Assembly: GCA_009712635.1 (NCBI GenBank)
Contig: WASS01000004.1
Location: forward strand, 1 to 64,000
Origin: Hungatella sp.
GTDB taxonomy: Bacteria; Bacillota; Clostridia; Lachnospirales; Lachnospiraceae
Length of the DNA: 64,000 nucleotides
Direction: 5' to 3'
Made by a program: the position numbers and the translations under genes. The first letter of the stretch is position 1; each line of letters starts with the position of its first letter. The notes under the pieces are model-generated. The model was not told the DNA's origin and searched no databases. It was given only the letters and a program-made list of their open reading frames with translations. Positions 9,208 to 12,194 of the stretch are shown one piece after another.

Positions 9208-10293
9208 TTAATTTTCATTGTCTACGGTACCGTTTATTACCTTAAATATTTTATCAATATGGAACCGGTCATTTACAAAATCTTCCAGTCCCGTACAGGT
9301 AATTACAGTCTGTATATGATTAATTCCTGCCAGTAATTGATTCTGCCTGCTGTTATCCAGTTCAGACAGTACATCATCCAGCAAAAGAATGGGGTAATCA
9401 TGCACAATGTTTTCTACCAGTTCTATTTCTGCCAGTTTTAAAGATAAAGCTGCAGTCCGTTGTTGTCCCTGAGAACCGAACCGCCTGATATCAATGCCAT
9501 TCACCATGAAACTTAAATCGTCCCGATGGGGGCCTGTCAGAGTGGTTCTCTGCTTCAGATCCTGACTTCTGCTTCGTCTTAAGGTTTCTTCAAAAGAATC
9601 TGCCTCCACATCTGGTTCATAAAGAATATGCAAGGATTCTTTATCCCCGGATAACTTACGATGGATGGGTTCAATAATCATTCCAAGTCTCTCTACAAAT
9701 TCTTTTCTGTACAGAATGATTTCTTTCCCATACTGTACCAGCTGCATGTCCCAGATATCCAGTGTTTCCTCGTAATCCGGGCGAAATGCAAGATCTTTTA
9801 ATAATTTATTACGCTGTGTCACAATCCGATTATACTGAACTAATGAGTGTACATACAGCTTATTAAGTTGACATAATTCCATGTCAACGAACCGACGCCT
9901 TTCTGCCGGTCCGTTTTTTATGAGATTTAAGTCTTCCGGAGAAAAAAATACAACGTTGACAATTCCAAATAATTCGCTGGCTTTACGGATGGGCACACCA
10001 TTAACCGCTACGCCTTTGGCTTTATTCTTTTTCAAATGCATGTCAATCCGGTATGGAATGTCATTCTTTCTGACGTTTAGCTTGATATGCGACTCATCCC
10101 TGTCAAACTGTATGATTTCCTTGTCCTTGCTGCCTCTGTGGGATTTTGTCGTAGCACAGACATAGATAGCTTCTAAGACATTTGTTTTCCCCTGGGCATT
10201 GTCCCCATAGAGTATATTGGTTCCCTGACTAAAATCCATATGTAATTCATCATAGTTGCGATAATTCTTAAGCTCTATCGATTCAATGATCAT
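9208..10293 (-). CDS. recF: DNA replication and repair protein RecF
   Basis: RecF is an SMC-like ATPase that helps load RecA at gaps through RecFOR. I place the start at the ATG at 10293, giving 361 residues beginning MIIESIELKNYRNY, the normal N-terminus of the family. The Walker A GDNAQGKTN, the signature LTGPHRDDLSF and the Walker B ILLLDDVLSELD are all present. The frame stays open upstream to a GTG at 10425 because three 51-bp repeat units are a multiple of three long; that 44-residue extension is repetitive and is probably not translated. The SD-like GAGAGG is contributed by the last repeat unit, 14 nt from the ATG. Confidence 0.95.
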   Translation of the reverse strand: MIIESIELKNYRNYDELHMDFSQGTNILYGDNAQGKTNVLEAIYVCATTKSHRGSKDKEIIQFDRDESHIKLNVRKNDIPYRIDMHLKKNKAKGVAVNGVPIRKASELFGIVNVVFFSPEDLNLIKNGPAERRRFVDMELCQLNKLYVHSLVQYNRIVTQRNKLLKDLAFRPDYEETLDIWDMQLVQYGKEIILYRKEFVERLGMIIEPIHRKLSGDKESLHILYEPDVEADSFEETLRRSRSQDLKQRTTLTGPHRDDLSFMVNGIDIRRFGSQGQQRTAALSLKLAEIELVENIVHDYPILLLDDVLSELDNSRQNQLLAGINHIQTVITCTGLEDFVNDRFHIDKIFKVINGTVDNEN

Positions 10294-10306
10294 GGATGTT
10301 GTGATT

Positions 10307-10446
10307 TCCTCTCTACTGTCCACGCTTTTTGGACATAAAGGTATGCCCACAGGGCGTTCCTCTCTATTGTCCACGCTTTCTGGACATAAAGGTATGCCCA
10401 CAGGGCGTTCCTCTCTATTGTCCACGCTTTTTGGACATAAAGGTAT
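10307..10446 (-). repeat. Tandem 51-bp hairpin repeat (array 1) between the S4 gene and recF
   Basis: Three head-to-tail units begin at 10318, 10369 and 10420, exactly 51 bp apart. Each plus-strand unit has GTCCACGCTTTTTGGAC (5-bp stem GTCCA/TGGAC), then CATAAAGGTATG (stem CATA/TATG), then GCCCACAGGGC (4-bp stem GCCC/GGGC) and a TTCCTCTCTA spacer. The third unit is cut short after TATG. Units differ at only a few bases. On the transcribed minus strand each spacer reads as a purine-rich SD-like AGAGAGG. No protein family is recognisable in the 17-residue reading. Confidence 0.92.
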
Positions 10447-10458
10447 GGCTGTTTAGTA

Positions 10459-10665
10459 TCACTCAATTTTAATGCTCTTACCATCGAATGTAACCATATC
10501 TCCGCTTCTTAATTTCTTCCCTCTCTGATACTCAGGCTGTCCATTTACGGAAACAAGACCATCCTCGATAACAAACTTGGCATCAACACCGGATCCTACC
10601 AAACCGGCAGCTTTTAAGGCCTGTCCTAACTTAATATACTCATCCCTTAATTTTATTGTTTCCAT
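10459..10665 (-). CDS. yaaA: S4-domain RNA-binding protein (YaaA/RlbA-like)
   Basis: This small protein of 68 residues begins METIKLRDEYIKLGQALKAA and carries one S4 RNA-binding domain with the motif VNGQPEYQRGKKLRSGD. The conserved place between dnaN and recF in Firmicutes supports the assignment to the YaaA/RlbA family, thought to act in ribosome assembly. The start at 10665 is favoured by AAGAGG 5 nt upstream; a longer reading frame would begin inside repeat array 2. It is flanked on both sides by repeat arrays. Confidence 0.92.
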   Translation of the reverse strand: METIKLRDEYIKLGQALKAAGLVGSGVDAKFVIEDGLVSVNGQPEYQRGKKLRSGDMVTFDGKSIKIE

Positions 10666-10668
10666 GGT

Positions 10669-10829
10669 TTCCTCTTTCTTGTCCACGCTTTTTGGACATA
10701 AAGGTATGTCCGTAAGGACGCTCCTCTTTCTTGTCCACGCTTTTTGGACATAAAGGTATGTCCGTAAGGACGCTCCTCTTTCTTGTCCATGCTTTCTGGA
10801 CATAAAGGTATGTCCGTAAGGACGCTCCT
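10669..10829 (-). repeat. Tandem 52-bp hairpin repeat (array 2) between dnaN and the S4 gene
   Basis: Three units begin at 10681, 10733 and 10785, exactly 52 bp apart. They share the GTCCACGCTTTTTGGAC core and the CATAAAGGTATG element with array 1, but the third hairpin is GTCCGTAAGGAC instead of GCCCACAGGGC: both arms changed together. This also creates an alternative 7-bp stem GGACATA-AAGG-TATGTCC that would compete with its neighbours. One unit has a T for C (GTCCATGC) and C for T in the loop. The unit nearest the S4 gene supplies that gene's SD sequence. Confidence 0.92.
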
Positions 10830-10838
10830 GCAGTTAGT

Positions 10839-11960
10839 TTAAACAGATGCCGCGTTAAAGTTTACAGGAAGAATCAAATAAATGTATTTTCCTTCCTCAT
10901 CCCGGATAAAGCAGGGGGATTTTGGATTTAACATATAAATTGTCACTTCTTCGTCATCAATGATTCTTAATGCATCAATGAGGAATTTGGGATTAAACCC
11001 AATCATGATGTCACTTCCGGTTTTATGGGTTGGAACCTGGGCATTCATAGATCCAAAACTGGAATTCATACGAAGTTCCATCTCCTGATCTTCAATATTG
11101 ATGATCAGAGGTTTTTTGTCATTTTCTCTCACCAGGATGGTTGCCCGGTCAAGACAGTCTAAAAGCTCTTTCTTATTTACACTGACTTTTGTTTCGTAAT
11201 CACTGGACAGCATCTGGTCAATACGGAAATAATCTCCTTCAATCAGACGGGATACAACGATTGTATGATCAAATTCAAAGAGGATGTGGTTTGTGCTGAA
11301 GAAAATAAGAACCTCTTTTTCGTTATCTCCGCCAAGTATCTTGCTGATTTCATTTAGAGTCTTGCCAGGAACAATGACTTTTATATCACGATAGGTATCT
11401 TTTAATTCAATATTTCGAATGGAGATTCTGTGACCATCCAGAGAAACCACTTTTAACTGGTTTCCTGTAACCTGAAACAGTTCTCCTGTCATCATCTTAT
11501 TACTGTCATTGGGTGCGATGGAAAAAATGGTCTGCCTGATGACTTCTTTTAAGGAAAACTGGGATAAGCAGATATAGTGATCACGCTCAATATAAGGTAA
11601 GTATGCAAATTCTTCCCCATCCCGGCCCTGTATATGGAAAATAGAGTTGTCACAGGAAATTGTTGTTGTAAATTTTTCATCGCTTTCAATTGTTACCATG
11701 GAATCACCGGAAGAGGACAGCTTTCTTACAATTTCTGAAAGTAGCTTGGCTTCTAAAGCAATCTTTCCCCGCTCCAGGATGGTTCCTTCCACCTTTGTTT
11801 CAATACCGAGCTCCATATCATTGGCAGTGAGTTTAATTTCAGAGCCGCTGGCATCGATAAAGATGCATTCCAGGATGGACATGGTTGTTTTGCTGGGAAC
11901 TGCTTTTAATACAATATTAATACCATTTAAAATGGCATCCTGCTTAAATGTCAGTTTCAT
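10839..11960 (-). CDS. dnaN: DNA polymerase III beta subunit (sliding clamp)
   Basis: The 373-residue protein begins MKLTFKQDAILNGINIV and shows the three-fold repeated clamp architecture. Family segments include FHIQGRDGEEFAYLP, QTIFSIAPNDSN and the C-terminal LILPVNF. It encircles DNA and tethers the replicative polymerase. The ATG at 11960 is preferred to one 27 bp upstream because AAAGGAG lies 12 nt before it. Its promoter region coincides with the AT-rich part of the origin between dnaA and dnaN. Confidence 0.97.
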   Translation of the reverse strand: MKLTFKQDAILNGINIVLKAVPSKTTMSILECIFIDASGSEIKLTANDMELGIETKVEGTILERGKIALEAKLLSEIVRKLSSSGDSMVTIESDEKFTTTISCDNSIFHIQGRDGEEFAYLPYIERDHYICLSQFSLKEVIRQTIFSIAPNDSNKMMTGELFQVTGNQLKVVSLDGHRISIRNIELKDTYRDIKVIVPGKTLNEISKILGGDNEKEVLIFFSTNHILFEFDHTIVVSRLIEGDYFRIDQMLSSDYETKVSVNKKELLDCLDRATILVRENDKKPLIINIEDQEMELRMNSSFGSMNAQVPTHKTGSDIMIGFNPKFLIDALRIIDDEEVTIYMLNPKSPCFIRDEEGKYIYLILPVNFNAASV

Positions 11961-11984
11961 AATTGTTGATAACTCCTTTGCTCT

Positions 11985-12194
11985 CAAAATAACAATAAAT
12001 AGATAAATAATATAGATTAATTTCGTCGTATTAGTAGTAGGGGCTGTGGGTTTGTGTAAAAGCCCTGATAACCGTTATAAAGCCTAAAGTTGTCCTGTTC
12101 ATAACAATGTGAATAACGTCCACAAAACGTGAGGAAAAATGAAAGGTTATCCACAGACTAATCAGAACCCTTTTGAGCCGCTTAATTATCCACA
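11985..12194. other. oriC, dnaA-dnaN spacer: AT-rich unwinding element, DnaA-trio, GC cluster and DnaA boxes
   Basis: From left to right there is an AT-rich stretch (about 11985-12022), TAGTAGTAG at 12032-12040, the GC cluster GGGCTGTGGG at 12041-12050, a degenerate box at 12053-12061, and DnaA boxes at 12108-12116 (TGTGAATAA), 12147-12155 (TTATCCACA) and 12186-12194 (TTATCCACA). Reading from the boxes, the TAG repeats run 3'-GATGATGAT-5', the polarity described for the Bacillus subtilis DnaA-trio. The three strong boxes are each 39 bp apart. This resembles the unwinding half (incC side) of a bipartite Firmicute origin. Confidence 0.8.

Follow-up and report, generated by a model that had tools for sequence, protein, structure and literature searches.

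In the 64-kb window, that is, the whole stretch of source-genome DNA that was analyzed, dnaN (10839..11987, the open reading frame as listed), a yaaA-like gene encoding an S4 domain (PF13275; 10459..10665) and recF (9208..10293) all lie on the minus strand, and both gaps between them are filled by tandem repeats. Three 52-bp units fill the dnaN–yaaA gap (array 2, 10666..10826, minus strand; matches to our covariance model at 10770-10826, 10718-10774 and 10666-10722), and three 51-bp units fill the yaaA–recF gap (array 1, 10303..10454, minus strand; matches at 10405-10454, 10354-10410 and 10303-10359). The unit starts (10318, 10369 and 10420, period 51, in array 1; 10681, 10733 and 10785, period 52, in array 2; six units in total) are exactly those given in a preliminary description of this DNA. 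With up to 3 mismatches allowed, the 17-mer GTCCACGCTTTTTGGAC is present at these six places only in the window, where shuffled sequences lead one to expect 0.10 occurrences.

Read on the transcribed strand, the unit runs from hairpin 1 through a linker to hairpin 2 and then a tail, which ends in a purine run. Hairpin 1 is GTCC-TTAC-GGAC in array 2 (10708..10719, minus strand, in the last unit); two array 1 units have GCCC-TGT-GGGC, and one of the six units, located at 10405-10454 and transcribed first in array 1, lacks this hairpin. The linker reads CATACCTTTATG in the window units, and many units elsewhere have GTATCCCTTTATG. Hairpin 2, TGTCCA-loop-TGGACA in the window units, occupies 10681..10697 (minus strand; GTCCAAAAAGCGTGGAC) in the last unit of array 2, and the equivalent hairpins start at 10733, 10785, 10318, 10369 and 10420. 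The tails that precede yaaA (AAGAAAGAGGAAACC, 10666..10680, minus strand, with the yaaA Shine-Dalgarno) and recF (AGTAGAGAGGAA, 10306..10317, minus strand) were read directly from the sequence. Both arrays fold better than their shuffled counterparts (z -4.67 and -4.62). Across the family, the unit is ∼52 bp long and consists of hairpin 1, a ATACCTTTATG-like linker, hairpin 2 and a ∼10-nt tail with a Shine-Dalgarno-like purine run, followed by the start codon; the unit ends (CACCCT... and ...AAGGAAA, by eye) do not form the terminal inverted repeats of a classical MITE. A reading of the unit as an encoded peptide (ATGTCCAAAAAGCATGGACAA...) was considered by eye only, and was dropped because the window units have no stop before the Shine-Dalgarno. 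As the 51-bp period is a whole number of codons (17), the recF frame continues without a stop across array 1 as far as a GTG at 10425 (9208-10425; 405 aa), which could mislead gene callers on the recF start.

The last unit of each array had been proposed to supply the ribosome site of the gene that follows. This is evident for yaaA, where the nearest unit ends GAGGAAACC-ATG and carries the yaaA Shine-Dalgarno (GAGG, 5 nt, ATG; start at 10665). It is less clear for recF, because the distance from the GAGG run to the ATG (14 nt) is nearly the same in G008, a species without units at this site (13 nt).

In order to follow the repeat beyond the window, a covariance model (R1) was built from 22 units at twelve places of the source genome; it identifies at least 31 units there at E≤0.001 and at least 35 at E≤1. 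These and all other copy counts are lower bounds, as at most 19 to 150 candidates were scored per genome, and distant relatives are under-counted because the model derives from the source genome. Units precede rnc, rsmE and ruvX (identified by Pfam), as well as smc, carA, rhaB, proS, pcrA, clpX and sugar-transport genes (identified by reading the proteins); at proS, a T-box leader precedes them and the start follows. Exceptions in the source genome are one array 90 nt from the next start (contig C30) and a hairpin that precedes no same-strand gene (C7:391554). The suspicion that the two arrays belong to a dispersed family is thus borne out, while a role confined to the dnaN-recF operon is too narrow, the repeat preceding many other genes.

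All 25 genomes of the genus, which we take to be Lacrimispora, have units (at least 3 to at least 134 each at E≤0.01), as do 15 of 149 further genomes sampled within the same family (E≤0.001). Among 16 genomes that belong to the order but not to the family, one has a weak match (E 0.005), and an order-wide draw yielded matches in 7 of 295 genomes (E≤0.0001), namely the source genome, three congeners, two other members of the family and one member of another family. An exact-pattern search of named contigs returned 106 stretches; the 80 that were listed comprise 32 from Lacrimispora, 17 from Clostridium sp. Marseille-P2415, 12 from bins titled Paenibacillaceae, and 19 others. These 12 (metagenome bins SIG286-288: L142, L143, L151, L153, L161, L170, L171, L185, L192, L198, L210 and L211) look mistitled, and in several of the bins the recF, yaaA, rnc, rsmE or ruvX leaders resemble those of the genus studied here. 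No match to the units was found among 4227 Rfam families (window positions 10200-10950 and nine source-genome loci as queries), in viral contigs (one exact pattern), or, with a single 112-base query for each, in plasmid and phage records. The family is without an Rfam match and undescribed in the literature we searched, a search of the listed titles and abstract openings with most subscription papers outside its reach.

The position of the repeat relative to genes was determined in G014, a congener chosen for its single complete contig and many units, in which at least 145 listed matches (E≤0.01) form 98 arrays, all of which were read. With gene starts called by simple rules (frames of 70 codons; AGGA, GGAG or GAGG as Shine-Dalgarno), no more than 54 nt separate hairpin 2 from a sense start codon equipped with a Shine-Dalgarno in 84 of the 98 arrays (median distance to the start codon, 23 nt), compared with 4 of 98 on the antisense strand and 433 of 6000 random places (7%). 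Roughly six of the 14 arrays that fail this rule precede a start codon by eye (L443 at smc, L449, L450, L456, L475 and L479), the remainder being exceptions or ambiguous. A same-strand open frame of at least 100 codons ends no more than 200 nt upstream of 72 of the 98 arrays (median gap 26 nt).

A slightly looser rule (60 codons, AAGG also accepted) was applied to two genomes of other genera. Among the 20 best listed places in G130, 19 lie at a ribosome-binding site in sense and 1 in antisense (null 416/4000). The G091 sample comprised 20 of the best places, omitting three that had been sampled before, additional units of arrays that were already represented, and a place close to the end of a contig; 18 of these 20 lie at such a site in sense and none in antisense (null 454/4000). 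The rule thus fails in 3 of the 40. Under the G014 rule, 27 places from 15 other genera, three of them shared with the G130 and G091 samples, include 21 at ribosome-binding sites, none antisense and six failures; the 27 derive from 33 matches after removal of duplicates of overlapping loci and of upstream units of one array. An earlier test of distances, made on a mixed set of contigs, placed a downstream start no more than 120 nt away for 55 of 66 distinct arrays and, on the opposite strand, for 7; it was given no weight because its null was loose (1648/4000). A pattern-based count of stems at orthologous sites was likewise set aside, its matches including many false ones. The repeat therefore sits mostly in sense at the ribosome-binding site of the downstream gene in multiple genera, and the association with ribosome sites that the window had suggested extends well beyond it.

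Covariation of the stem arms, initially noticed between the two window arrays, grows as more copies are aligned. Among the 22 source-genome units (alignment A1), both sides of a pair have changed in 15 cells vs. 6.6 in shuffles, with two of five measures not above shuffles (pairs with a double change, 3 vs. 3.1; further pair types, 9 vs. 10.3). The corresponding numbers of double-changed cells are 111 vs. 33.5 for 122 distinct units from named contigs (A2), 78 vs. 21.8 for 115 distinct units of G014 (A3, with double changes at eight of ten pairs) and 34 vs. 6.7 for 29 distinct units from other genera (A4, with 94.6% of cells paired); the model guided the alignment of A2, A3 and A4, which therefore lean towards the modeled structure. 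Stems are lineage-specific (GTCC/GGAC and GCCC/GGGC in the genus, GGCC/GGCC at all 20 G130 places, two stem kinds within the G091 genome), whereas the linker is similar across genera. Both hairpins are conserved and covary within and between genera, a pattern that may in part be owed to a small number of master subfamilies and not to site-by-site selection.

Hiding of the Shine-Dalgarno by the linker was considered as a separate candidate, and is unsupported by either test applied to it. Linker-to-Shine-Dalgarno pairing is not above that of linker-shuffled controls (0.124 vs. 0.143, n = 84). In A2, a linker C accompanies AAGG tails (13) and not GAGG tails (1; p 0.0003), the opposite of what pairing predicts, and A3 shows no significant association (2 GAGG, 5 AAGG, p 0.41). 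The linker could not be read in 11 of 122 units of A2 and 37 of 115 of A3, and the test was confined to rows with the linker bases and tails being compared.

Within the genus, unit number varies by species, from none to several, at recF (two genomes with no call and one truncated where its contig ends), yaaA (five with no call), rnc and smc (G015 and G023 missing from the comparison), and ruvX (G004 missing), and units of one array are often alike. At yaaA, units are decayed or missing in G002, G008 and G012; since this holds at several orthologous sites, the units are inessential there. Empty and filled sites can be compared directly. At smc, the empty site of G012 reads AATATGGAAA-AGAAAGGGCAG, and the filled site of G014 reads AATAATAAGGAAA, a unit ending AATAATAAGGAAA, and then AGAAAGGGCAG; at recF, ATCGAGGAA-TAACACC in G008 corresponds in G011 to ATCGAGGAA, unit material ending GAGGAA, and then ATAACACC. 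In both pairs, the unit begins after a GGAA-like run. Tails are locus-specific, and the left flank of an array matches the array's own tail at 7.88 of 12 positions, compared with 7.20 (sd 0.10) for other tails, and 0 of 5000 permutations reach 7.88. Remnants of earlier tandem units would give the same picture as a target-site duplication, and the tail copy in the left flank is partly such a remnant.

A repeat with many copies, a conserved structure, and both filled and empty sites is a small dispersed bacterial hairpin repeat. It is dispersed in sense orientation at ribosome-binding sites, carries two hairpins, changes in unit number, leaves sites empty in relatives, and tends to be flanked by a copy of its own tail. 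We consider it somewhat probable that this is a tandemly expanding, non-coding ∼52-bp element of ribosome-binding sites, a mobile RNA-hairpin module that alters the use of the downstream cistron. From these features we infer how it might move and act: a new unit would be copied beside an existing Shine-Dalgarno purine run and would renew that run, so that the downstream gene would keep its ribosome site; arrays would then grow or shrink by slippage or unequal crossing-over; and in the transcript, in most cases between genes of the same direction, the hairpins would stand directly 5' of the Shine-Dalgarno, where they could change ribosome access, mRNA processing or the stability of the downstream cistron. 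The position at ribosome-binding sites may stem from insertion preference or from selection. We put forward more tentatively a bolder version, in which the element homes actively and in sense to the Shine-Dalgarno, resupplies it, and rewires operon translation through unit number, with lineage-specific stems matched to each lineage's own dispersal machinery. More generally, a small repeat seated in one orientation at the translation start sites of dozens of genes, its hairpins conserved and its unit number variable, would offer a natural system in which gut and environmental bacteria tune translation heritably, and it raises the question of what targets DNA insertion, or retention, to Shine-Dalgarno sites.

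The repeat might instead be a miniature element that is entirely selfish: its transposition machinery would recognize Shine-Dalgarno-like purine runs, its hairpins would serve transposition only, and ribosome-binding sites would be a safe harbor. This is possible but doubtful: the own-tail copy that tends to flank the first unit of an array, the start of the unit after a GGAA-like run at smc (G012 vs. G014) and recF (G008 vs. G011), the retention of hairpins whose sequence differs by lineage, and the existence of decayed copies would all be expected, yet preference for a single target motif accounts poorly for the position. Of 244 RAGGAAA motifs outside the arrays of G014, the motif covered by this test, 208 lie in called genes, 11 at ribosome-binding sites and 25 elsewhere, so only 11 of the 36 non-genic motifs are at ribosome-binding sites, compared with 84 of the 98 arrays, and a preference for RAGGAAA combined with loss from genes is insufficient. 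Moreover, 12 of the 16 arrays on the lagging strand (assuming an origin at dnaN and a terminus opposite) still follow the orientation of the gene, and no mobilizing gene was found. One candidate would be a Y1 transposase of the IS200/IS605 or RAYT kind acting on a REP-like repeat, and two short hairpins with a fixed flanking motif do recall IS200/IS605 ends. Nevertheless, PF01797 is absent from five of the 25 genomes, including G014 and G008, each with at least 134 units, and G012 has 10 PF01797 matches and at least 7 units. A Y1 transposase is thus not needed now, the distribution of PF01797 relative to that of the units largely refutes it as the present driver, and mobilization of this kind is very unlikely today, although it may have had an ancestral role.

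Two further alternatives place the function in the transcript rather than in the DNA. An RNA-binding protein that recognizes the linker and hairpins could control many genes as a post-transcriptional regulon, in keeping with a linker that is similar across genera while stems vary, and with several units per gene, which may recall protein-binding arrays; this is improbable given the gain and loss of units at orthologous genes and the lack of any functional theme, by eye, among the genes downstream. Alternatively, the 3' arm of hairpin 1 could pair with the 5' arm of hairpin 2 instead of both hairpins forming, producing an attenuator-like switch; the preliminary description had suggested a switch of some kind. 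This alternative stem (GGRCATA/TATGYCC) can indeed form in 84-90% of cells, and double changes exceed shuffles in A1 (7 vs. 0.7) and A2 (20 vs. 9.5), but nearly all of that excess comes from a single pair, subfamilies may account for it, and none is seen in G014 (A3, 2 vs. 1.8) or in other genera (A4, 1 vs. 1.7). The proposed switch is therefore not established, and we rate it least probable among these alternatives. We thus retain the mobile hairpin module of ribosome-binding sites as the preferred reading.

Among known repeats, REP/BIME sequences are likewise dispersed hairpin repeats between operon genes, and go with a Y1 transposase (RAYT); they occupy mostly 3' positions, unlike the 5' position of the present repeat, which has no Y1 gene in two unit-rich genomes. 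ERIC/RU repeats are enterobacterial and longer than 100 bp. The available part of their description presents them as small repeats in operons with a reported orientation-dependent effect on transcripts, and contains no position at ribosome-binding sites (PMC2229807). Nearest in behavior, as far as the accessible portions of the sources extend, are the TAACTGA repeats of Beggiatoaceae (MacGregor 2015, PMC4679880) and the BOX elements of Streptococcus pneumoniae (PMC3049150). The former, like the present units, are direct repeats that mostly face forward and lie immediately before start codons, where the ribosome-binding site is expected, and are described as occurring in many sets of variable copy number, with no gene-function pattern and an unknown origin (PMC4679880, in part). 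They differ in being heptamers (7 bp vs. a 52-bp two-hairpin unit) from a different phylum, and only about 10% of TAACTGA regions are reported in that text also to have a Shine-Dalgarno, whereas the present unit ends in a Shine-Dalgarno-like run. BOX elements are dispersed, structured when transcribed, and possess a tandem core of variable number, and boxA/boxC and boxB are reported to change the expression of neighbors; they are set apart by their description, as far as available, as composite boxA-boxB-boxC elements with terminal inverted repeats and no Shine-Dalgarno lock (PMC3049150). A paper on 104 RNA motifs (PMC2864571), likewise available in part, was also among the comparisons.

Several additional observations concern individual loci. 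Near-identical units with near-identical flanks are present in unrelated gut genomes, Emergencia included (L139, L166, L180 and L207; L145, L157, L165, L179 and L209), and genes for a SpaA/thioester surface protein and a helicase of the SNF2 type are among the neighbors at L207 and L209, which suggests integrative elements on which units may also travel as passengers. A seven-unit array in G006 (L122) precedes a putative sugar-transport ATPase gene, and a unit precedes an rplB-like gene both in this genus and in G154, which belongs to a different one (L474, L156 and L245); settlement there may be ancient or repeated. Finally, the stretch that separates smc from the last unit in smc leaders (L325-L347) contains another inverted repeat (GGGCAG...CTGTC or TTGTC), which is found as well in G012, where smc has no unit, and is absent in G008 and G022.
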